Made by a program: the position numbers and the translations under genes. A stretch of DNA of 64,000 nt from Bacillus sp. AFS059628 (GTDB lineage: Bacteria; Bacillota; Bacilli; Bacillales; Bacillaceae_G), in the NCBI RefSeq assembly GCF_002571225.1, contig NZ_NVEC01000008.1, positions 147,284 to 211,283 on the forward strand. Reading direction: 5' to 3'. Below are positions 7,729 through 59,516 of this stretch, one piece after another (the first letter of the stretch is position 1; every line of letters starts with the position of its first letter). The notes under the pieces were generated by a model. It was given only the letters and a program-made list of their open reading frames with translations, was not told where the DNA came from and did not search any database.

Positions 7729-8931
7729 ATGGGAGAAGCAATACTCGTAAAACGAGAACCGTTATGGACGAAAGAGTTTGTTGCTTTAATTCTAGCAAAC
7801 TTATGTATGTTTTTAGGGTTTCAAATGTTAATTCCTACTTTACCTGTTTATGTGAAAGAAATTGGCGGCACAAGTTCTAATATCGGATTTGTTGTCGGCA
7901 TGTTTACTGTAGCGGCACTTTTTGTTAGACCACTAACGGGAAACGCCTTGCAAAAATTCAACAAAAAAATTATTTTAATGATTGGTACTGCAATTTGTTT
8001 ACTCGCTATGGGTAGTTATCTTTTCGCTTCAACTGTCTTCCTATTACTTGCCGTTCGAATTTTACACGGGGCTGGTTTTGGTATTACAACGACTACATAT
8101 GGAACTGTCGTTTCAGATTTAATTCCACAAGCTCGCCGCGGTGAAGGCATGGGATATTTCGGTCTTTCTGGAACAATTGCAATGGCGCTTGGTCCACTTA
8201 TCGGACTTTGGCTTATGCAAACATATAACTTCACAATTCTTTTTTTATGTGCACTTTCCTGTACAGTAGTTTCATTAATATTAACAAAAATACTTCAAAT
8301 CAAAAAATCGCCGCAACCACCTCAGCAAATATCTGGTACCTTCCTCGATGGATTTATCGAGCGCAAAGCTTTACTTCCTTCATTATTAATATTATGTATT
8401 ACATTAATGTACGGAGGAATCGGGAGCTTTATTACATTATTCGCTACCGAAGTCGGAATTGCTGATATTAGCCTCTTTTTCTTATTTAATGCACTGGCAA
8501 TCGCTGTCACTCGTCCGTTTTCTGGAAAGTTATACGATGCGAAAGGTCATACATTCGTTATCATTCCAGGAGTTATTATTACGTTTGTAGGTATTATTTT
8601 ATTGTCGTATACAACTACCATTCCGAGTTTAATTATTGCAGCGGCATGTTACGGAAGTGGTTTTGGAGCGATTCAACCTGCACTGCAAGCATGGATGATT
8701 GATCGAGTAGCACCGCACCGACGAGGCGTCGCAACCGCTACATTCTTCTCAGCATTCGACCTTGGAATTGGTGCTGGCGCAATTATATTTGGATTCATTG
8801 CACATTTTACAAACTATGCAACTGTATATCGCTATTCCTCTCTACTCCTTATTGCTTTCCTATTCATTTACATCACAAGTGTAAGGAAACAAAAGCATGG
8901 AGATAAAAACAGAGAAAAAGCTGCTGGATAA
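7729..8931 (+). CDS. MFS transporter, drug-efflux type
   Basis: The 400-residue protein has twelve predicted membrane segments and the DHA1-like pattern. PTLPVYVKEIGGTSSNIGFVVG is followed by a RPLTG motif after helix 2, GAGFGITTTTYGT in helix 4, and RRGEGMGYFG, which resembles drug exporters of Bacillus (YfkF/YwoG type). It probably exports a small hydrophobic compound by proton antiport. The start ATG follows AGGGGATGA. It stands alone with its own terminator, and the substrate is unknown. Confidence 0.8.
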   Translation: MGEAILVKREPLWTKEFVALILANLCMFLGFQMLIPTLPVYVKEIGGTSSNIGFVVGMFTVAALFVRPLTGNALQKFNKKIILMIGTAICLLAMGSYLFASTVFLLLAVRILHGAGFGITTTTYGTVVSDLIPQARRGEGMGYFGLSGTIAMALGPLIGLWLMQTYNFTILFLCALSCTVVSLILTKILQIKKSPQPPQQISGTFLDGFIERKALLPSLLILCITLMYGGIGSFITLFATEVGIADISLFFLFNALAIAVTRPFSGKLYDAKGHTFVIIPGVIITFVGIILLSYTTTIPSLIIAAACYGSGFGAIQPALQAWMIDRVAPHRRGVATATFFSAFDLGIGAGAIIFGFIAHFTNYATVYRYSSLLLIAFLFIYITSVRKQKHGDKNREKAAG

Positions 8932-8949
8932 TTTCAGTGGCTTTTTTAT
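8914..8949 (+). terminator. Terminator of MFS gene
   Basis: AAAAAGCTGCTG pairs imperfectly with CAGTGGCTTTTT, followed by TTTT. The left arm overlaps the last codons of the MFS gene. Confidence 0.6.
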
Positions 8950-9262
8950 CGTATTTTTGATGTTATAAAACTACATGCATTTCCCTACATATTTTTTTAA
9001 CTTTCGTCAAAAAATATACGATGAACTCGTAGACGCTTTCCTTCATATTCAAATGAACAACACTATTCTAAAAAATGTGATTTCTTTACAAAAACACTGT
9101 CTATATAGGGGTTAAACCAATTAAATCCAGCTGTTTCTTTAAAGAATTGTAAACTTTTCTTCCCTTTGTAAATTTAGTGTAAATTTTACTGACAAACCGT
9201 TTACAGTGCCTCAAGGTTTAGTTAATAATTACATCGTACATGAAATTTAAGGAGTGGAATGC
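8950..9262. promoter_or_regulatory. Upstream region of Na/Pi transporter with TGTAAA repeats
   Basis: There is no gene here. TGTAAA occurs at 9148, 9167 and 9178 (the last two 11 bases apart) and its inverse TTTACA at 9200. The 11-base phase recalls PhoP boxes (TT[ATC]ACA repeats), which would fit a phosphate transporter. The hexamers differ from the consensus, so this is only a candidate. AAGGAG at 9249-9254 serves the GTG start at 9263. Confidence 0.3.
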
Positions 9263-10918
9263 GTGGAATACAATATTCAAGATATGATCTTCCAGTTCAT
9301 TGGTGGATTAGGTATTTTCTTATTCGGGATTAAATACATGGGCGATGGACTGCAACAAGCTGCTGGAGATCGTCTTCGCGATATTTTAGATCGCTTTACA
9401 ACAAACCCACTTATGGGTGTACTAGCGGGTATGTTAGTTACTGTATTAATCCAATCAAGTTCAGGAACAACCGCTTTAACAGTTGGACTTGTAAGTGCCG
9501 GATTTATGACATTAAGACAAGCAATCGGTGTTATTATGGGTGCAAACATCGGAACGACAGTTACTGCATTTATTATCGGAATTAAAATCGGAGAATACGC
9601 ACTTCCAATTATGGCAGTTGGAGCTATCTTACTATTCTTCTTTAAAAATAAAAAAGTACATTCTTTCGGACAAGTTATATTCGGTTTTGGTATGTTATTC
9701 TTCGGTTTAGAATTAATGAGCACAGGTATGAAGCCTCTTCGCTCTTTAGAATCATTCCAAGAATTAATGATTAGCATGAGTGATAATCCAATTTTAGGTA
9801 TTGTGGTCGGTACAGTTTTTACTTTAATTGTACAAAGTTCAAGCGCAACAATCGGTATTTTACAAGAACTATTCGGTCAAGGCGCAATCGATTTAAAAGC
9901 TTCGCTTCCTGTATTGTTCGGTGATAACATAGGTACAACAATTACAGCTGTATTAGCTGCAATCGGTACTTCAATTGCCGCAAGACGTGCTGCATTAGTT
10001 CACGTTATCTTTAATATCGTTGGTACAATTATCTTTACGATTTTATTAGTACCTTTTACAAGTTTAATTCAGTATTTCCAAACGTCATTAAACTTAAATC
10101 CAGAAATGACAATTGCATTTGCACACGGAACGTTTAACGTAACGAATACAATCATTCAGTTCCCATTCATTGCAGTATTAGCCTGGATTGTAACAAAAAT
10201 CATCCGTGGTGAAGATTCATCTATTAACTTCAAACCGCAACATTTAAATCCAATCTTTATTGAACAATCTCCAGCCATTGCTTTAACAGAAGCTCAAAAA
10301 GAAATCATCCGTATGGCTGAGTTTTCATTAGATGGACTAAAAGAAGCAAATCAATTTTTAAACACACAAGATAAAAAACATGCTGATATGGCTACTCAAT
10401 TAGAAGGAGCTATTAACAATTTAGATAAAAAAATTACCGAGTATTTAGTTTTACTATCAGAAAAGCCACTTTCACCTACGGATTCTGAAAAACATTCCGT
10501 TTTAGCAGGTGTTGTCGGAGATATTGAACGTGTCGGTGATCATGTAGAAAATCTTGTAGAACTTGTAGATTTTCAAATTTCAAACCGCGTTTCACTATCA
10601 GGCGAAGCACTAGCTGAACTAAATGAAATGCTTGAGTTAACAATTTCAACATTACAAGATGCAATCAATGCTTTAACTAACTTCGACACTGAACTAGCTC
10701 AAACAGTTATTGCAAAAGAACGTAAAATCGACCAAATGGAACGTGTTCTCCGGAAACGTCACGTATTACGTCTAAACGAACGTAGCTGTTCAGGTGATGC
10801 AAGTATCATCTTCGTTGATATGGTAAGTAACTTAGAGCGTATCGGTGATCACGCTGTAAATATTGCTGATGGTGTTTTAGGTGAACAAGGTAAAGTCAAT
10901 TTAAAACAATCATTATAA
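9263..10918 (+). CDS. Na/Pi cotransporter family protein with PhoU-like tail
   Basis: This is a 551-residue protein. Its membrane part has two inverted Na/Pi-cotransporter repeats with the diagnostic QSSSGTTALT and QSSSATIGIL motifs. A cytoplasmic PhoU-like helical part follows (about residues 340-545, with ERVGDH and ERIGDH). It is of the YjbB/NptA type and probably moves phosphate across the membrane. The start is GTG at 9263, eight bases after AAGGAG; a GTG three codons upstream overlaps that site. It is a single-gene unit with a bidirectional terminator. Confidence 0.9.
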   Translation: MEYNIQDMIFQFIGGLGIFLFGIKYMGDGLQQAAGDRLRDILDRFTTNPLMGVLAGMLVTVLIQSSSGTTALTVGLVSAGFMTLRQAIGVIMGANIGTTVTAFIIGIKIGEYALPIMAVGAILLFFFKNKKVHSFGQVIFGFGMLFFGLELMSTGMKPLRSLESFQELMISMSDNPILGIVVGTVFTLIVQSSSATIGILQELFGQGAIDLKASLPVLFGDNIGTTITAVLAAIGTSIAARRAALVHVIFNIVGTIIFTILLVPFTSLIQYFQTSLNLNPEMTIAFAHGTFNVTNTIIQFPFIAVLAWIVTKIIRGEDSSINFKPQHLNPIFIEQSPAIALTEAQKEIIRMAEFSLDGLKEANQFLNTQDKKHADMATQLEGAINNLDKKITEYLVLLSEKPLSPTDSEKHSVLAGVVGDIERVGDHVENLVELVDFQISNRVSLSGEALAELNEMLELTISTLQDAINALTNFDTELAQTVIAKERKIDQMERVLRKRHVLRLNERSCSGDASIIFVDMVSNLERIGDHAVNIADGVLGEQGKVNLKQSL

Positions 10919-43996: not shown

Positions 43997-44022
43997 AGAC
44001 CTGCAGATGGTCTCTATTTTAA
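43989..44022. terminator. Bidirectional terminator
   Basis: AAAATAGAGACC / GGTCTCTATTTT with loop TGCAGAT overlaps the ends of both convergent genes. Confidence 0.88.
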
Positions 44023-45173
44023 ACCCGTTGATCCGCAACGATATGAATATCAATATACTTCGTTTGCCTCATAATTTCATTTACAATTGAACCTTTTCGA
44101 ATTTCTTCCCAACGTGTTCTCGCCGATTGTCCAAGTAAAATTTGCGTTACTTGTAATCTTTTCGCGACTTCAATAATAACATCCGCTGGCTTCCTTCCTT
44201 TGGCCTCTTCTAAAACAAAACTCGCATCAAATTGATTCGTTAGCGACTTCCACTCTTCAATTGTTTGCTTTTTCCCTGCTGAAAGAGAATCTATATTTTC
44301 CCTTTCAACGTTTAATACATATAATTCAGCGTTTAACCGATCAGCCATGCGCCATCCCCGTCTTATTAATTTCTCCGCTGTTGAACTGTATTGTACACAA
44401 ACGAGAATTTTTTCTTTTACGCCAATCGGTTCTATTACTGTTTGGCTAATTTTCTCGTCCATATCATCTGCAACTTCTCGAAGTGATAATTCCCTAAGCG
44501 CTCCTAAATTATTAAGTGTAAAGAAGTTATGTAAGCTTTGCTGAATTTTTTCTTCTTTATATATCTTTCCGTCTATTAGTCTCTTCCTTAATACCTCAGG
44601 CGTTGCATCAACGAGCTGAATTTCATTTGCTTTTTGTAAAATAAAATCCGGAATACGTTCTCTTACTTTTACATTCGTAATTTGAGCTACAATATCATGA
44701 ACACTTTCTAAATGTTGAATATTAAACGCTGATAATACGGATATACCGGCATCTAACAATTCCTGTACATCCATATAACGTTTCTTATTTTTAGATCCAG
44801 GAATATTACTATGCGCGAGTTCATCCACAACAACGACCTCGGGGGCACGTTTTATAATTCCTTCCACGTCTAGTTCATAAAATACTTTCCCTTTATAATC
44901 TATTTCTTTTAAAGGAACTTGTTCTAAATCAGCAATTGCATCTTCTGTCTCTTTTCTCCCGTGCGTTTCAATTAAACCAATTACAATATCCGTACCATCC
45001 TTTTTCATCTCTCTAGCATCATAGAGCATTTTATAACTTTTCCCTACCCCTGGAGCCGCTCCTACATATAGCTTTAACTTCCCGCGATTTTGCTGCCGGA
45101 TATATTCTAAATATTCCTCTGGCGTTCGCCTTTGAAAAGTTGGTTTATAGTCATCCGCATACAAAACACTCAC
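44019..45173 (-). CDS. kdpD: Truncated KdpD: sensor and USP domains without kinase
   Basis: The 384-residue protein carries only the N-terminal KdpD domain (Walker A GAAPGVGKS, residues 38-46; IIVDELAHSN-like VVVDELAHSNIPGS) and a universal-stress-protein domain (about 245-380). The transmembrane, GAF and histidine-kinase parts of a normal KdpD (about 900 residues) are absent and no kdpE lies beside it. It cannot act as a sensor kinase; it may bind c-di-AMP or ATP through the USP domain, as KdpD does in S. aureus. The start is GTG at 45173, but TTG 45164 is possible. A hairpin separates it from kdpC. Confidence 0.88.
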   Translation of the reverse strand: MSVLYADDYKPTFQRRTPEEYLEYIRQQNRGKLKLYVGAAPGVGKSYKMLYDAREMKKDGTDIVIGLIETHGRKETEDAIADLEQVPLKEIDYKGKVFYELDVEGIIKRAPEVVVVDELAHSNIPGSKNKKRYMDVQELLDAGISVLSAFNIQHLESVHDIVAQITNVKVRERIPDFILQKANEIQLVDATPEVLRKRLIDGKIYKEEKIQQSLHNFFTLNNLGALRELSLREVADDMDEKISQTVIEPIGVKEKILVCVQYSSTAEKLIRRGWRMADRLNAELYVLNVERENIDSLSAGKKQTIEEWKSLTNQFDASFVLEEAKGRKPADVIIEVAKRLQVTQILLGQSARTRWEEIRKGSIVNEIMRQTKYIDIHIVADQRV

Positions 45174-45229: not shown

Positions 45230-45811
45230 CTATTTCATTAATTTCTGTAATTCTAAATTTAACTTTAAGACGTTCACGCGGTTCTCTCCAAATAAGCCAA
45301 GTGCCGCACCTTCCGTTTGATCCTTAATCAATTGATCTAGCATTTCTTTCGGAATTTTCGTTAATTTTGAGATGCGATCCACCTGTACAGAAGCGGCCTG
45401 TGGGCTAATGTCAGGATCAAGCCCTGAACCTGAATTCGTCACTAAATCAATTGGTACTTCTGTCACTGGAAAAGCCCGGTTTTGTTTCTTCCATTCTTCA
45501 ATACTTTTCTCTACTCGTTTCTCTAAATCTGGATTAGACGGTGCATAGTTATTGGAACCAGATGCTTCTGCCTTATATTCAATACTAGAAACACGCCCAT
45601 GAAAATAACGTGGGTCTGTGAAATTTTGACCAATTAATTTAGAACCAATCACTTCATTTTTATCATTATATATTAGACTTCCATCCGCATTATCCTTCAT
45701 TACCGCTTGTGCAATACCAGTTACAATAAGTGGGTATACAAGGCCACACAACACTAAAAATGTAAAAGTAATCCGGATGATTGGTGATAGTATACTTTGT
45801 TTCTTCGCCAT
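45230..45811 (-). CDS. kdpC: K+-transporting ATPase subunit C
   Basis: The 193-residue KdpC has one N-terminal membrane helix ([23 protein letters not shown]) and the periplasmic-type domain with [35 protein letters not shown] and the terminal [17 protein letters not shown]. It stabilises the KdpFABC complex. ATG 45811 follows GAGGGGAAAAAG. It lies 16 bases after kdpB. Confidence 0.96.
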
Positions 45812-45827
45812 CTTTTTCCCCTCTTCC

Positions 45828-47921
45828 TTATATAAACAAGCCGACAATTATATCAATTACTTTAATTCCAATGAACGGTACAATCACTCCGCCAAGTCCA
45901 TAAATAAGTAAGTTTCGGCCAAGTAGTGCATTCGAACTCATCGGTTTATATGCGATACCTTTCATCGCCAATGGAATAAGTAACGGAATAATAACAGCGT
46001 TAAATATTAATGCTGATAAAATCGCTGACAGTGGTGATGTTAGTTTCATAATGTTTAATTCTTCCATTTGCGGAATCGCAAGTGTAAACATTGCTGGAAT
46101 GATTGCAAAATATTTTGCGATATCATTCGCAATACTAAACGTCGTTAACGCACCACGCGTCATTAATAATTGCTTACCGATTCCTACAACCTCAATAATC
46201 TTTGTCGGATTCGAATCTAAATCAATCATATTCGCTGCTTCTTTTGCAGCTGTCGTCCCACTATTCATTGCTAATCCAACGTCAGCTTGCGCTAGTGCCG
46301 GAGCATCATTTGTACCATCACCTGTCATCGCTACAAGTTTCCCTTTATCTTGCTCTGCTTTAATAACTGCAATTTTATCTTCTGGCTTACACTCAGCAAC
46401 AAATTCATCTACTCCAGCTTCTTTTGCAATGGTTGCTGCTGTTAATGGATTATCACCCGTACACATAACCGTTTTAATCCCCATTTGACGCAATTGTTCA
46501 AAACGTTCACGCATACCAGGTTTTACTGTATCTTTTAAATAGATTAAACCGTAAATACGATTATCCACTGCAACTACAAGTGGTGTCCCACCCTCTTTTG
46601 AAATGAGATCTGCTTTTTGATTTACATCTTTCGGAATCGTTCCGCCTTGTGACCTAACCCATTCAATCACGCTACCTACAGCACCTTTTCTCACTTTCGT
46701 TCCGTCTTGTAAATCGACACCACTCATTCTCGTTTCTGCTTTAAACGGAACAAACTCACCTTGTTCTGCAATTTCTCGATTATATGATATAGACTTCGTT
46801 TTTACATATTCGATAACTGATCGACCTTCTGGTGTTTCATCTAAAACTGAGCTAATAGCTGCCCATTTCCCTACTTGCTCAATCGTTTCATTTCCTACAG
46901 GTAATAATGTATGAGCCATGCGGTTCCCGAAAGTAATTGTACCTGTTTTATCTAAAATAATTGTATTAATATCTCCCGCAGCTTCTACTGCTTTCCCTGA
47001 CATCGCTAACACATTAAACTTCGTCACCCGGTCCATCCCAGCAATACCAATCGCTGATAATAACCCACCAATTGTCGTTGGAATTAAACAAACTAACAAC
47101 GCAACAAGTACAGCTGTATCAATTTGAAATCCTAAATAGTTTGTAAAAATCGGTAACGTCACAACAACAATTAAGAAAATAAGAGTTAAGCTTGTTAATA
47201 CTGTATTTAAAGCAATCTCATTCGGCGTTTTTTGGCGAGCAGCGCCTTCTACTAACGAAATCATTTTATCAATAAATGATTCACCAGGATTACTCGTAAT
47301 AACAATCGTAATCTCATCACTGACGACCATCGTACCACCTGTTACGGAACAAAAATCACCGCCCGCTTCTTTTATAACAGGAGCCGATTCCCCTGTAATC
47401 GCAGATTCATCAACAGACGCTAACCCTTTTATAACTTCCCCATCACTTGGAATCATTTCTCCTTGTTTTACAATAACAACGTCACCTTTTCTCAAATCAG
47501 TTGCTGAAACTTGAACAATATCCCCATTTTCTTTTACAACATTTGCAAACACATCTTTCTTCGATTGTTTTAAAGAATCAGCTTGCGCTTTCCCCCGCCC
47601 TTCCGCTAACGCTTCTGCAAAGTTAGCAAATAAAACTGTAAATAAGAGAATGAGAGAAACTGTTATATTAAACCATCCTGGTACACTACTAGAATGACTT
47701 GGAAGAAACGATAAAATGAACGTAATGACAAACCCAATTTCTACAACGAACATAATTGGATTCTTTATCATAACTTTCGGATTCAATTTCGCAAAGGATT
47801 GTTTCATCGCATGTGTCACGATATCACGATCCATCGTTTTCGCTTGTCTAACTTCATCTTCTACCGCATGTATATGTGACTCATTTACTCTTTTTTCTTT
47901 TACTACTACCGGTCTCATCAT
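45828..47921 (-). CDS. kdpB: K+-transporting ATPase subunit B (P-type ATPase)
   Basis: This 697-residue P1A-type ATPase has the phosphorylation motif [13 protein letters not shown] (Asp324), TGES in the actuator domain ([12 protein letters not shown]) and [12 protein letters not shown] in the hinge. It hydrolyses ATP to drive K+ uptake through KdpA. Two adjacent ATG codons follow GGAGGG; the second (47918) has slightly better spacing. It lies 10 bases after kdpA. Confidence 0.97.
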
Positions 47922-47931
47922 TTACCCTCCA

Positions 47932-49599
47932 TTACTTCAATGTAAGAAATTCTGCAATTGGGCCGAGTACTAACATTGGAAAGAATGTTAATGCACCGAC
48001 AATTACAATTGTTCCGATGAAAATGCCGCCAAATAAACTATTGTCCGTACGGAACGTTCCGACTGTTTCTGGCACAACCGTCTTTTCTTTCAAAGAAGCT
48101 GCAACAGCTAGCATCGTAATTAAACTGAAATAGCGCCCTAAAAACATAACTAAACCAGTTGTAATATTCCAAAACGGTGTATTATCCGCTAATCCTTCAA
48201 ATCCAGATCCATTATTCGCAGCTGACGATGTATATTCATATACTACTTGCGTTAAACCGTGGAAACCGGAATGAGAAATGGCATCCGTTCCTAAACTTGT
48301 TGAAAGAGCTAATGCTGAAAATCCTAAAATAAGCAGTGGATGAAATAGTATTGTTACCGCAATTAATTTCATTTCCTTACCTTCAATTTTCTTACCTAAA
48401 AACTCTGGTGTCCGTCCAACCATCAATCCAGATATAAAGACTGCGATAATCGCATACATAATAATGTTCACAAAGCCTGCTCCAACGCCGCCGTATACTG
48501 TATTTAACATCATATTTACGAGCGGTACTAACCCGCCAATTGGTGTTAACGTATCATGCATCGTATTCACGGCTCCGGTTTCAGCTGCTGTCGTCACTGT
48601 TGCGTATAGGGAAGAAAATACTGTTCCAAATCGTACTTCTTTTCCTTCCATACTTCCTTGTACATGCTGTATACCCAGTCCATTTAACGCTGGATTCCCA
48701 TGTAATTCAGATGTCGTAATCGTTATAAACCCTAGTAAAAACACCATAAATAGTGAAACGAAAAGGATACGCCCTTGCTTTTTATTGCCTACCATTCGTC
48801 CGTACGTAAACGGAAGTGCTGTTGGCAACAACATCATAAGCATCATTTGCAAAATATTACTCATTTGCCCTGGATTTTCGAAAGGATGTGTAGAGTTTGC
48901 TCCGAAAAATCCACCGCCGTTATTTCCAAGTTCCTTAATAGCTACGAATGATGCAACAGGCCCGCGTAAAATACTTTGTTTTGCGCCATCAATCGTTTGT
49001 GCCGTAACGGCACCTTCTAACGTTTGTGGTACACCAAGTGCGACAAAGACTAGTGCTGCAATACATGCGATAGGAAGAAATACTCTCGTTAATGCTCTCG
49101 TAAAATCAACGAAAAAGTTACCAAGTTCTTTTCCAGCAAGCCCTCTTATAAATGCCATAACGAGTGCTAACGTCGTTGCCGGTGCTGCAAACATTAAAAA
49201 TGTAATTCCAATTGATTGTGATAAATAAGATAAACCATTTTCACCGCTATAATGCTGTAAGTTTGTATCAGCCATAAAACTAATTGCTGTATTAAAAGCG
49301 AGCGTAGGCTCCATTCCTTCAATGTGTGCTGGATTTAATGGCAATACTCCTTGCAGTCTGAAAATGAAATATACGACAACAATCATAAATCCATTTAATA
49401 AAACTAATGATAGTGCGTACTGTTTCCACGTTTGATTGTATTCTTTTACACCCGTAATTTTAAAAATAAGTTTTTCAAAAGGCCCGAATACTTTATCTAG
49501 CTTTTTACTACCTTGAAAAGCTTTCTCTAAATAAATTCCCGTTGGCTTTGCCACAAGAATAAACAACAGCATTGTAATAACAACTGCGACCCAGATCAT
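47932..49599 (-). CDS. kdpA: K+-transporting ATPase subunit A
   Basis: The 555-residue channel-like subunit has ten helices. It carries selectivity-filter loops typical of KdpA, such as TNLQHYSGENGLSYLSQ, ELGNNGGGFFGANSTHPFENP, TETGAVN-like AAETGAVNTMHD and TSSAANNGSGFEG. It binds and conducts K+ at high affinity. The start is preceded by AGGGGGAGTC. It follows kdpF by 19 bases. Confidence 0.97.
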   Translation of the reverse strand: MIWVAVVITMLLFILVAKPTGIYLEKAFQGSKKLDKVFGPFEKLIFKITGVKEYNQTWKQYALSLVLLNGFMIVVVYFIFRLQGVLPLNPAHIEGMEPTLAFNTAISFMADTNLQHYSGENGLSYLSQSIGITFLMFAAPATTLALVMAFIRGLAGKELGNFFVDFTRALTRVFLPIACIAALVFVALGVPQTLEGAVTAQTIDGAKQSILRGPVASFVAIKELGNNGGGFFGANSTHPFENPGQMSNILQMMLMMLLPTALPFTYGRMVGNKKQGRILFVSLFMVFLLGFITITTSELHGNPALNGLGIQHVQGSMEGKEVRFGTVFSSLYATVTTAAETGAVNTMHDTLTPIGGLVPLVNMMLNTVYGGVGAGFVNIIMYAIIAVFISGLMVGRTPEFLGKKIEGKEMKLIAVTILFHPLLILGFSALALSTSLGTDAISHSGFHGLTQVVYEYTSSAANNGSGFEGLADNTPFWNITTGLVMFLGRYFSLITMLAVAASLKEKTVVPETVGTFRTDNSLFGGIFIGTIVIVGALTFFPMLVLGPIAEFLTLK

Positions 49600-49844: not shown

Positions 49845-49876
49845 TAAAAAAGAACACTGAGCTCTACTCAGTGTTC
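49845..49876 (-). terminator. Expression-platform terminator of the kdp riboswitch
   Basis: On the minus strand GAACACTGAG-TAGAG-CTCAGTGTTC is followed by TTTTTTAATATTTT. It lies between the c-di-AMP aptamer and the first kdp frame, as expected for ligand-induced termination. Confidence 0.88.
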
Positions 49877-49901
49877 AAAAAATGAACAACAAAAAGTAAA
49901 C

Positions 49902-50040
49902 CTCCTCTCTAAACGCTTACGAGGTTAGCTGTCGGATTCGGGCCTAAAGAGTAGCCCTACTTTCAAAACTGAAAGATTCACCCCAAGTGACGATGCACAA
50001 AATTGGTTCCCCCGCTCCATTTCTGGAACTCAGCGATTTT
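49902..50040 (-). ncRNA. c-di-AMP (ydaO/yuaA) riboswitch 1, kdp operon
   Basis: The minus strand has the conserved ydaO aptamer blocks in order: ATCGCTGAG, AATGGAGCGGGGGAACCAAT, TTGGGGTGAATC, GTAGGGCTACTC, CCGAATCCGACAGCTAACC and GTAAGCG. The terminator at 49845-49876 follows directly. High c-di-AMP should switch off kdp. A kdp-linked ydaO riboswitch is known in the B. cereus group, so the assignment is firm. Confidence 0.93.
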
Positions 50041-50079
50041 AGGTTTTTTTGGAAATTTTATGAATGATTTATGAGAGTA

Positions 50080-50108
50080 AATATACTCCTCTATATTTCA
50101 CTTGTAAA
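50080..50108 (-). promoter_or_regulatory. Promoter of the kdp riboswitch transcript
   Basis: On the minus strand TTTACA (50108-50103), 17 bases, TATATT (50085-50080). The start would be about 30 bases before the aptamer. Confidence 0.6.
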
Positions 50109-50237
50109 GAGGCAAATTACTAAAAATAAGAATATATATATCTGTTTAAACGCTTACATCATGTATTATTAATACTCTTTCATCTCTTTTCTCGTCTTTT
50201 CTTTCTTTTTCATAGAAATGATCTTTTAAATACGAAA

Positions 50238-50298
50238 TAAAAAGAGCGAATGATATGAAGTGCATAGCTTGTTGCACTTCGCATTCGCTCTTTTTTCA
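50238..50298 (-). terminator. Terminator of the second c-di-AMP unit
   Basis: AAAGAGCGAATG pairs with CATTCGCTCTTT around an inner GAAGTGCA / TGCACTTC stem, with T-runs both sides. It separates the two-gene unit from the kdp promoter. Confidence 0.9.
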
Positions 50299-50306
50299 CT
50301 CCCTAT

Positions 50307-50537
50307 TTATTCTCCTCGTAAAAAAGCACGTAAATTTCTCCCACGAATATAAACTTGTGACAATTCTGCATGTAGTTGCTCATATTCGATAACATCTGTT
50401 TTTAAATATAAAGCGTCTTTCGATGGCAATATGATATAGGGCCTTGGAAAAATAGGATCGAGCACCACCAATTCTTGAACTCGCTCTACCGATACCGCCC
50501 AACGATTCGCTATATCTCCTAGTAACAACACCTTCAT
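50307..50537 (-). CDS. 76-residue protein of the second c-di-AMP unit, HTH-like
   Basis: ATG 50537 follows GTGGGGGAAAAGAAG. The N-terminus LLLGDIANRWAVSVERVQEL looks like a helix-turn-helix of excisionase/MerR type, followed by PIFPRPYIILPSKDALYLKTDVIEYEQ, in which the same family places a wing. It may bind DNA. I do not recognise a named family. It lies 16 bases after the 128-residue gene and both share the second ydaO riboswitch leader. Confidence 0.7.
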   Translation of the reverse strand: MKVLLLGDIANRWAVSVERVQELVVLDPIFPRPYIILPSKDALYLKTDVIEYEQLHAELSQVYIRGRNLRAFLRGE

Positions 50538-50553
50538 CTTCTTTTCCCCCACC

Positions 50554-50940
50554 CTATTCAAAAAATAAAAAAGAAATATTATCACAATTCGTAAACACGA
50601 CAAATGTAGCTCCAATTGTTTCATAGAGCCTCGCTGGATATCGTTTATTTCTTGTAACAACAGTAATAGGTGCTTGAAAAGAAAAGCGAATATGTTCTGT
50701 AAAGAAGCTAACGATTGGAAGCTCATCACCTAGTAAAATCACCTTCTTAATACACTCACAAATACTAGTAAAATCCTGCTCCTGACTACAACTATACGTC
50801 CAATCAAATCCACAATTCCTAACTTCAGCCGCTATCTCTTCATTTGCTGTAAAAATAATTAACTCATGTTGAAATGCTACTAAATCTATTAGACTATTTA
50901 CCTTACTTTCTTCTCCAACACAAATAAGTGTTAATTCCAT
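50554..50940 (-). CDS. 128-residue protein behind c-di-AMP riboswitch 2, RCK-like
   Basis: ATG 50940 is preceded by AAGGAGGATGAGG. The product opens with a hydrophobic strand (ELTLICVGEESKVNSLIDL) and alternates strands and helices. It ends with ITVVTRNKRYPARLYETIGATFVVFT, a pattern weakly like the TrkA-N/RCK Rossmann domain of potassium channels, but without a clear GxGxxG loop. The family is unrecognised. Control by a c-di-AMP riboswitch next to kdp suggests a role in potassium or osmolyte balance; that part is inference. Confidence 0.7.
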   Translation of the reverse strand: MELTLICVGEESKVNSLIDLVAFQHELIIFTANEEIAAEVRNCGFDWTYSCSQEQDFTSICECIKKVILLGDELPIVSFFTEHIRFSFQAPITVVTRNKRYPARLYETIGATFVVFTNCDNISFLFFE

Positions 50941-51037
50941 GTACCTCATCCTCCTTAGCATAAAAGAAATCAAACATAGATTGATATTCCCCTATACTAA
51001 TCAGATCGATGAAGTGATGTATCCATCATGGCACCGT

Positions 51038-51176
51038 CCTCTCTCAAGACGCTTACGAAGTTAGCTGTCGGATTCGGACTTTGAGAGTAGCCCTACTTTC
51101 AAAATTGAAAGATTCACCCCTAGTGACACTTCACAAATTGGTTCCTCCGCTCCATATAATTGGACTCAGCGTATTA
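51038..51176 (-). ncRNA. c-di-AMP (ydaO/yuaA) riboswitch 2
   Basis: The minus strand carries the same aptamer blocks as riboswitch 1 in the same order: TATGGAGCGGAGGAACCAAT, TAGGGGTGAATC, GTAGGGCTACTC, CCGAATCCGACAGCTAAC and GTAAGCG. It lies about 100 bases before the 128-residue gene. No strong terminator follows; only a short ATCAA/TTGAT stem with TTCTTTT is seen, so the output mechanism is unclear. Confidence 0.92.
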
Positions 51177-51198
51177 CAAAAAATATATTCTGGCTGAT

Positions 51199-51227
51199 AT
51201 ATTACTCTTGTATTTGGAAAAAGTAAA
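51199..51227 (-). promoter_or_regulatory. Promoter of riboswitch 2 transcript
   Basis: On the minus strand TTTACT (51227-51222), 17 bases, TAATAT (51204-51199), starting near 51192, about 16 bases before the aptamer. Confidence 0.55.
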
Positions 51228-59204: not shown

Positions 59205-59233
59205 ACAGCAAATAAAATTATAATTTATTCGTT

Positions 59234-59326
59234 GTTCCACTTCCCTTCGCTAGTATTACCTAGATCAGGTGTTATAAGGGTTAAGGATTATTCCTCTCTC
59301 AGCACAACAAGCACCCCTAGTGGTTT
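59234..59326 (-). ncRNA. TPP riboswitch B (proximal to tenA)
   Basis: The minus strand has a THI element: ACCACTAGGGGTGC, GCTGAGAG, ACCCTTA, ACCTGATCTAGGTAATACTAGCG and AAGGGAAGTGG closing P1. It precedes terminator 59175-59204. Confidence 0.94.
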
Positions 59327-59346
59327 CAATATGAAATTTTTAAACA

Positions 59347-59384: not shown

Positions 59385-59400
59385 ATTATTAATGTCCGAA

Positions 59401-59497
59401 TTGCTTCCCTACGCTAGCATAATCTAGATCAGGTAATAAAAAGGATCAAAGACTTAAGGTCTTACTCTCAGCTGGCAACACCAGCTCTCCTAGCAAA
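59401..59497 (-). ncRNA. TPP riboswitch A (distal)
   Basis: The minus strand has TTGCTAGGAGAGC, GCTGAGAG, ACCTGATCTAGATTATGCTAGCG and AGGGAAGCAA closing P1. It carries its own terminator, so the transcript must pass two independent TPP-controlled stops. Confidence 0.92.
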
Positions 59498-59516
59498 CTA
59501 TAAAATTATCACTGTC

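Follow-up and report, generated by a model that had tools for sequence, protein, structure and literature searches.

According to the parts of the published accounts available for this comparison, the level of c-di-AMP increases with K+, and its binding to ydaO RNAs shuts off the genes behind them, a relation described for the riboswitch class as a whole. KtrA and KtrC form gating rings that are composed of RCK_N and RCK_C domains, and similar extracts report that the RCK_C domain of KtrA binds c-di-AMP. Extracts of two studies place ktrAB of B. subtilis and of the B. cereus group under a c-di-AMP riboswitch too (PMC6488665, PMC5575661). One of these sources also describes a kdpFABC switch of B. 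thuringiensis, with a terminator after the aptamer and a truncated kdpD beside kdp, and counts riboswitch-regulated kdp in 12 species as of 2019; the extracts concerned make no mention of an RCK-like gene beside kdp (PMC6488665).

In this study, a stretch of 64,000 nucleotides from Bacillus sp. AFS059628 (hereafter the window) was analysed. It shares with the B. thuringiensis switch the aptamer class, the truncated kdpD beside kdp and the terminator after the aptamer, but differs from it in having a second aptamer, which governs two small genes, ORF1 and ORF2 (Table 1). Read along the minus strand, the region consists of thiD, the second aptamer (aptamer 2), ORF1, ORF2, hairpin, kdp aptamer (aptamer 1), terminator, kdpA-kdpB-kdpC and truncated kdpD, where the names thiD, kdpB and kdpC are those that we presume from recognition of the ORFs. 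The preliminary description of this DNA had proposed a full ydaO aptamer at 51038-51176, preceding a unit of two genes (128 and 76 residues) closed by a strong terminator, with kdp and a further ydaO aptamer as the next unit downstream. These points were borne out by the present analysis. The proposed aptamer is contained in the Rfam match at 51034-51181(-), and the covariance model gave 109.4 bits for it and 115 bits for the kdp aptamer at 49900-50045(-), both well above the gathering cut-off of RF00379 (38 bits). Both genes are present at the expected lengths (ORF1, 50557-50940(-); ORF2, 50310-50537(-)), the hairpin with a U run 3' of ORF2 folds at -37.4 kcal/mol (for 86 nt), and kdpA (47932-49599) follows downstream.

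Table 1 Features of the ORF1-ORF2 and kdp region, in coordinates of the window
Feature	Position	Strand	Remarks
Promoter-like TTTACT-N17-TAATAT	51199-51227	(-)	5' of the second aptamer
c-di-AMP (ydaO) aptamer of the ORF1-ORF2 unit	51034-51181	(-)	RF00379, 109.4 bits, E 3.7e-25, full model 1-134
ORF1 leader hairpin	50943-51015	(-)	3' arm contains the Shine-Dalgarno sequence AGGAGG (50955-50950) and a U-rich run
ORF1	50557-50940 (stop 50554-50556)	(-)	128 aa, RCK_N-like, without RCK_C
ORF2	50310-50537 (stop 50307-50309)	(-)	76 aa, HTH-like small protein
Terminator-like hairpin and U run after ORF2	50237-50296 (about)	(-)	RNA fold, sequence
kdp promoter-like TTTACA-N17-TATATT	50080-50108	(-)	5' of the kdp aptamer; also in the generic promoter scan
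c-di-AMP (ydaO) aptamer of kdp	49900-50045	(-)	RF00379, 115 bits
Intrinsic terminator of the kdp riboswitch	49852-49876	(-)	11-pair stem and TTTTTT
kdpA	47932-49599	(-)	First large gene of the downstream kdp operon
kdpB	45828-47921	(-)	Recognised ORF
kdpC	45230-45847	(-)	Recognised ORF
Truncated kdpD	44019-45173	(-)	KdpD and Usp domains by Pfam

Two further elements were seen in the window. Two short hydrophobic ORFs (34 and 26 aa, by eye) lie at 49800-49619(-), 5' of kdpA, and the second of them resembles KdpF, while a tandem pair of TPP riboswitches is located at 59225-59328(-) and 59389-59501(-) (72.6 and 67.1 bits, respectively).

The comparison was based on a kdp set of 80 loci, kept from 412 KdpA relatives as those nearest to the window KdpA, with one genome per species. 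The top matches of this set are E. antri (L001) and E. panaciterrae (L002), to which the window KdpA is 79% identical, and by this similarity the source organism is near Ectobacillus. Another locus, assigned to Ectobacillus through a genus search that started from genome G002 (L084, genome G004), repeats the layout of the window, i.e. an aptamer (695-833), ORF1, ORF2, an aptamer (1877-2020) and kdpA, and two of the three RF00379 matches of the whole genome are located there. The window ORF1 protein is 49% identical to its counterpart in L084 and 38–39% identical to that in L002, and the respective values for ORF2 are 38% and 45–49%. Between the window and L084, differences at the three codon positions number 43/38/72 in ORF1 and 35/23/50 in ORF2, the third position changing most in each gene. 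Both frames that the preliminary description had proposed are thus kept as proteins in L002 and L084.

At the E. antri locus (L001) a transposase-like ORF (8497-9444(-)) occupies the ORF1-ORF2 site, ORF2 is reduced to its 3' half beside it, and iterated HMM searches of all frames found no ORF1-family member in the locus. In E. panaciterrae (L002 8632-8820) the aptamer before ORF1 is absent, the promoter-like element and a terminator-like hairpin are still there, and the first ORF1 codons are out of frame in that assembly.

The second aptamer had also been credited with a promoter of its own. The hexamers TTTACT/TAATAT of the element in front of it recur before ORF1 in L084 (spacer 17) and L002 (spacer 16), and the TTTACA-N17-TATATT element of kdp is likewise found before the kdp aptamer in L084, L002 and L001, these patterns having been written after inspection of the same sequences. 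A generic scan for the promoter consensus was not above shuffles (5 found vs 5.7 expected), and therefore the case for the promoter is its conservation; the claim holds for a conserved promoter-like element, but draws no help from the generic scan.

In the ORF1 leader, the RNA of positions 50930-51060 folds at -41.0 kcal/mol, compared with a shuffle mean of -27.7 (z -3.8), and 5 of the 6 Shine-Dalgarno bases are mostly paired in the fold. Terminator scans of this leader in the window revealed no canonical terminator. A strict script, which discards bulged stems, found a terminator before ORF1 in 11 of 42 leaders (the window being negative), and when the leaders of 8 relatives were folded, a terminator was recognised by eye in 7, the eighth (L110) being ambiguous. 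According to the predicted folds, the place taken by a terminator in several relatives is occupied in the window by a hairpin that sequesters the Shine-Dalgarno site. Given the U-rich run in its 3' arm, both translational control and a degenerate terminator are possible. Just 3' of the aptamer tail GAGAGGA, tiny start-to-stop frames of 10 and 8 codons are present in the window (51029-50997(-)) and in L084 (841-867(+)), respectively; such a frame is possibly a leader peptide, or possibly a product of chance.

ORF1 alone, searched in a short form of 125 aa against genome contigs, gave no relatives. These were reached through KdpA loci, by iterated HMM searches in all frames of the fetched sequences. 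The resulting family comprises 48 members in 45 sources (44 of the 80 kdp loci and the window), including two fragments (L048 and L055) and one broken frame (L004). Most ORF1 genes of the kdp set lie directly 5' of kdpA. Two copies each, every copy behind its own aptamer, are carried by Peribacillus frigoritolerans (L027) and Metabacillus indicus (L028). Near the C-terminal end, a Tyr (43/44) and a Gly (44/44) are conserved and serve as marks of the family.

Single-protein scans of the window ORF1 and ORF2 gave no match in Pfam or NCBIfam. Across 44 ORF1 members, the best NCBIfam E-value was 0.0093, and Pfam returned GlnR_1st in one (E 8e-4, the best overall), TrkA_N in 4 (best E 0.008) and ADH_zinc_N in 3 (0.0026). 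The family is, by these scans, unnamed in Pfam and NCBIfam. The papers found give no description of the genes named kdpZ, kdpY and kdpX in Clostridium, with which ORF1 might be identical. No description of the ORF1 family was found in the literature searched, which covered few subscription journals and, in extracts, PMC6488665, PMC5401905, PMC5670726, PMC5575661, PMC3766115 and PMC6957272. Searches of plasmids with tblastn yielded one weak match (E 0.5) for the window ORF1 and none for the ORF1 of locus L124.

The faint RCK character ascribed to ORF1 in the preliminary description became firmer when the family was compared as a profile. The alignment used (A3) consists of 44 of the 48 members, with L004 (broken frame), L048 and L055 (fragments) and L043 (a near-copy of L042) omitted, and contains no Ktr row. 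Against the PDB, its top match was KtrA (5but, E 8.9e-7), and 14 of the 23 listed sequences were Ktr or TrkA, the rest including three designed proteins and response regulators. Comparison of the ORF1 profile with seven Ktr proteins by hhalign gave a probability of 92.9 and an E-value of 3.6e-7 over 116 columns, and the RCK_N part of KtrA/KtrC can be aligned to ORF1 over nearly its full length. Run on 397 genomes of the order, A3 gave 26 strong matches in 23 genomes (E < 1e-10) and, after a gap, only weaker matches (E 1e-7 to 1e-3) in 250 more; among the matches listed, nearly all the weaker ones lie in frames of about 215–265 aa. Ten of the A3 regions were fetched, of which 8 hold a second-tier ORF of this kind, always with both TrkA_N and TrkA_C and hence Ktr-type; in the remaining two (L104 and L105), short frames resembling ORF1 are found near kdpA. 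At the profile level only, ORF1 is a distant relative of RCK_N (TrkA_N, PF02254). A receiver domain, also considered for ORF1, gave a weaker but not negligible similarity (hhalign probability 55, E 1.2e-4, 87 columns) and was rejected.

In contrast to KtrA and KtrC, ORF1 is devoid of RCK_C and of most of the nucleotide and cation-cofactor residues. The protein ends after the RCK_N-like part, at 128 aa, whereas all 8 Ktr controls carry both domains. Nucleotide binding by RCK_N involves a GxGxxG motif, whose place was also read from the Ktr alignment; its glycines are rare in the ORF1 family (Gly8 in 9/44, Gly10 in 10/44), and the window has V8 and E10. None of the 44 members has an acid at the end of beta-2 (T31 in the window) or a Glu at the position of E125 of KtrA, a residue of the PE motif that, in the extracts of the source, is required for full activation of KtrAB with Mg2+ (PMC6957272).

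That the riboswitch is ORF1's steadiest partner is well supported by the loci compared. In the kdp set and the window, an aptamer lies no more than 900 nt upstream of 31 of the 48 ORF1 genes. The other 17 have no aptamer within that distance. Across all the loci surveyed, ORF1 copies devoid of an aptamer include those placed after kdp (L007 and L037), the Brevibacillus copies, second copies such as that of L152, and five kdp-adjacent copies (L014, L025, L031, L032 and L060). A class-wide search of 398 genomes identified 54 ORF1 carriers at E<=1e-9, and the best 30 loci, fetched with their flanks, all have a ydaO aptamer 68–221 nt upstream of the aligned part of ORF1, although these are not 30 independent events because close relatives are among them. 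The class-level aptamers were found with a model built for this work (R1); the Rfam model, run on 14 genomes, confirmed the aptamer in all four of these class-level genomes to which it was applied (G621, G642, G690 and G652).

By coordinates, 7 of the best 30 class-level loci are beside kdpA and 23 are elsewhere; in L124, for instance, the aptamer and ORF1 are situated between two non-kdp genes, which we take to be glutathione-peroxidase-like and HAD-like. Within the order, 23 of the 26 strong ORF1 matches are located <=4.5 kb from kdpA on the same contig. The other three are L110 and L111, where ORF1 stands behind two tandem aptamers (Rfam agrees), and L109, with no aptamer within 900 nt of ORF1. 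In a tree of 73 ORF1 rows, riboswitch-keeping copies away from kdp fall into four separate groups, in a poorly resolved topology (135 columns, 28 of 75 inner branches open, and near copies among the 30 loci). The label "away" in this tree also covers copies at a distance of some 1.8 to 8 kb from kdpA; each of the 11 "away" copies that have a riboswitch, however, is on another contig than kdpA or >1 Mb off. As far as these genomes can be compared, the riboswitch with ORF1 recurs as a unit in distant genera, sometimes far from kdp.

Within the order, kdpA is present in every one of the 23 genomes that gave a strong ORF1 match, compared with 59 of 397 genomes overall, and it is also present in 47 of the 50 further class-level carriers (both comparisons are uncorrected for relatedness). 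In the remaining three (G470, G589 and G652) kdpA was not found and there are just 31–33% matches to part of KdpB, so that these genomes are apparently without kdp; each of them has two or three Ktr relatives. Five ORF1 carrier genomes, among them the three just named, were tested for Ktr relatives, and all 5 have them. Since kdpA accompanies ORF1 in most carriers and is absent in three, ORF1 appears tied to kdp-bearing lineages with Kdp itself not needed, and KdpFABC cannot be its sole partner.

A ydaO aptamer precedes kdpA on the same strand, within 2.5 kb, in 66 of the 80 loci of the kdp set, a proportion that points to riboswitch-controlled kdp in more species than the 12 of the 2019 count. 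Four kdp loci (L013, L021, L025 and L041) have a close KdpE relative (>500 bits) and no ydaO aptamer upstream of kdpA. Three of these four were seeds of the KdpE model; from these loci, control of kdp by KdpE and by ydaO look mutually exclusive.

Our preferred explanation, held tentatively and with slightly more doubt than confidence, is that a c-di-AMP riboswitch governs a solitary, degenerate RCK_N-like protein (ORF1) that tunes K+ uptake, ORF2 being a genus-level extra. By analogy with other ydaO switches, bound c-di-AMP would keep ORF1 off, and at low K+ and low c-di-AMP it would be made together with Kdp. The absence of RCK_C and the near-complete loss of nucleotide and cation-cofactor residues suggest a non-sensing, structural or competitive role, in which ORF1 itself would respond to neither ATP nor c-di-AMP and would act through contact with another protein, the likeliest modes being that it joins or caps the RCK ring of Ktr or that it binds KdpFABC; in consequence, K+ uptake would be tuned during starvation. 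The kdp-less genomes are best reconciled with Ktr as the proposed partner, and the gene neighbourhood would agree with KdpFABC. A broader version, which we regard as rather unlikely, would make the solitary RCK_N-derived family a core ydaO target of the Bacilli, i.e. a starvation-induced, non-sensing subunit that re-gates K+ uptake (Ktr, and the KdpA branch). If true, ORF1 would be, in kdp-linked lineages, the first RCK-type partner of the KdpA branch. A recurrent riboswitch target without a name or a model would fill a gap in the c-di-AMP regulon, and ORF1 would connect the gating fold of RCK proteins with the circumstances in which Kdp is switched on, as a candidate for how cells re-tune K+ uptake as c-di-AMP drops.

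Several other readings of the locus were weighed. ORF1 may be a dedicated regulatory subunit of KdpFABC, which we consider unlikely. KdpA is related to KtrB/TrkH, which RCK rings gate, so that the KdpA branch would find in ORF1 the RCK partner it otherwise lacks; its usual place directly before kdpA in the kdp set and the presence of kdpA in 23/23 order carriers and 47/50 further class-level ones fit this well, but not the 23 of the best 30 class-level copies that are not beside kdpA, nor the three carriers with no kdpA and partial KdpB matches of 31–33%. Given that Ktr/TrkA chains come first in the profile searches and that the canonical nucleotide-binding residues are mostly lost, it is quite unlikely that ORF1 is a Rossmann-like enzyme or ligand binder of osmotic adaptation unrelated to transport gating, in spite of weak matches of single members to ADH_zinc_N and other families and of the occurrence of glutamine synthetase among other ydaO targets here. 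The notion that the second aptamer arose by duplication of the kdp riboswitch and has since decayed, with ORF1 and ORF2 as passengers, draws on the failure to find a terminator in the window leader and on the unit being broken in L001 and altered in L002; it is highly improbable in view of the 109-bit aptamer over the full model, the conserved promoter-like element and the recurrence of the arrangement in distant genera and away from kdp.

The remaining reading depends on ORF2. BusR is a c-di-AMP-binding repressor composed of an HTH and RCK_C, and ORF1 with ORF2 might be its two-chain analogue, a split transcription regulator (RCK-like sensor and HTH) acting on kdp or its neighbours. The likeness lies in the pairing of an HTH and an RCK-type domain for osmotic control; unlike in BusR, ORF1 and ORF2 are separate chains, and an RCK_N-like domain stands in place of RCK_C. 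In the window, L002 and L084, ORF1 and ORF2 are neighbours, and 4 of the 6 ORF2 relatives scanned have weak Pfam HTH matches. The HTH-like nature of ORF2 claimed earlier is accordingly in part sustained by its relatives, but all their matches are below the curated cut-off and ORF2 itself has no Pfam match; a DNA-binding role is likely on sequence grounds, and the label AlpA/MerR-like is our assumption. Strong ORF2 matches were found in the window, L002 and L084, and close relatives in Ectobacillus genomes only. Outside the genus, 397 genomes gave seven matches with E-values of 2e-11 to 1.1e-5 and three weaker ones, and in none of six regions around the weaker relatives outside Ectobacillus was an ORF1 match detected. 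With strong ORF2 matches limited to Ectobacillus among the ORF1 carriers searched, and with ORF1 lacking RCK_C, which in KtrA is the c-di-AMP-binding domain according to the extracts cited at the outset, a split regulator is very unlikely. Because close ORF2 relatives were found in Ectobacillus only and the six regions elsewhere gave no ORF1 match, the conserved module is the riboswitch with ORF1. The two-gene unit finds no support as a conserved module, and the candidate new potassium or c-di-AMP responsive module of the preliminary description survives as a recurring riboswitch and ORF1, with ORF2 no longer part of it.

Other genes behind ydaO aptamers were observed in the surveyed loci. A second unnamed family, with a KWASFL-like motif, follows the aptamers of L015 (9252-9398(-)), L025 (4823-4975(-)) and L067 (6447-6642(+)), and two members scanned (L015 and L067) had no Pfam match; KWASFL-like ORFs were also seen by eye in L118 (2628-3104) and L152 (4357-4812), divergent beside ORF1. 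A glutamine synthetase gene, assigned by Pfam in L003, is preceded by ydaO aptamers in L003 (7673-7997(-)), L069 (1013-1313(-)) and L028 (7018-7151(-)), in tandem in L003 and L069. Small stand-alone Usp-like proteins are led by ydaO aptamers in L007 (8107-8248(-)), L037 (8397-8548(-)), L030 (8308-8466(-)), L038 (8308-8464(-)) and L020 (5911-6069(-) and 20249-20404(-)). Two of these proteins were compared with Pfam Usp (L030, 2.2e-12; L007, 3.4e-4, below the cut-off). They resemble the Usp domain of KdpD, which in S. aureus, according to extracts of the published work, is the c-di-AMP-binding part of the protein.
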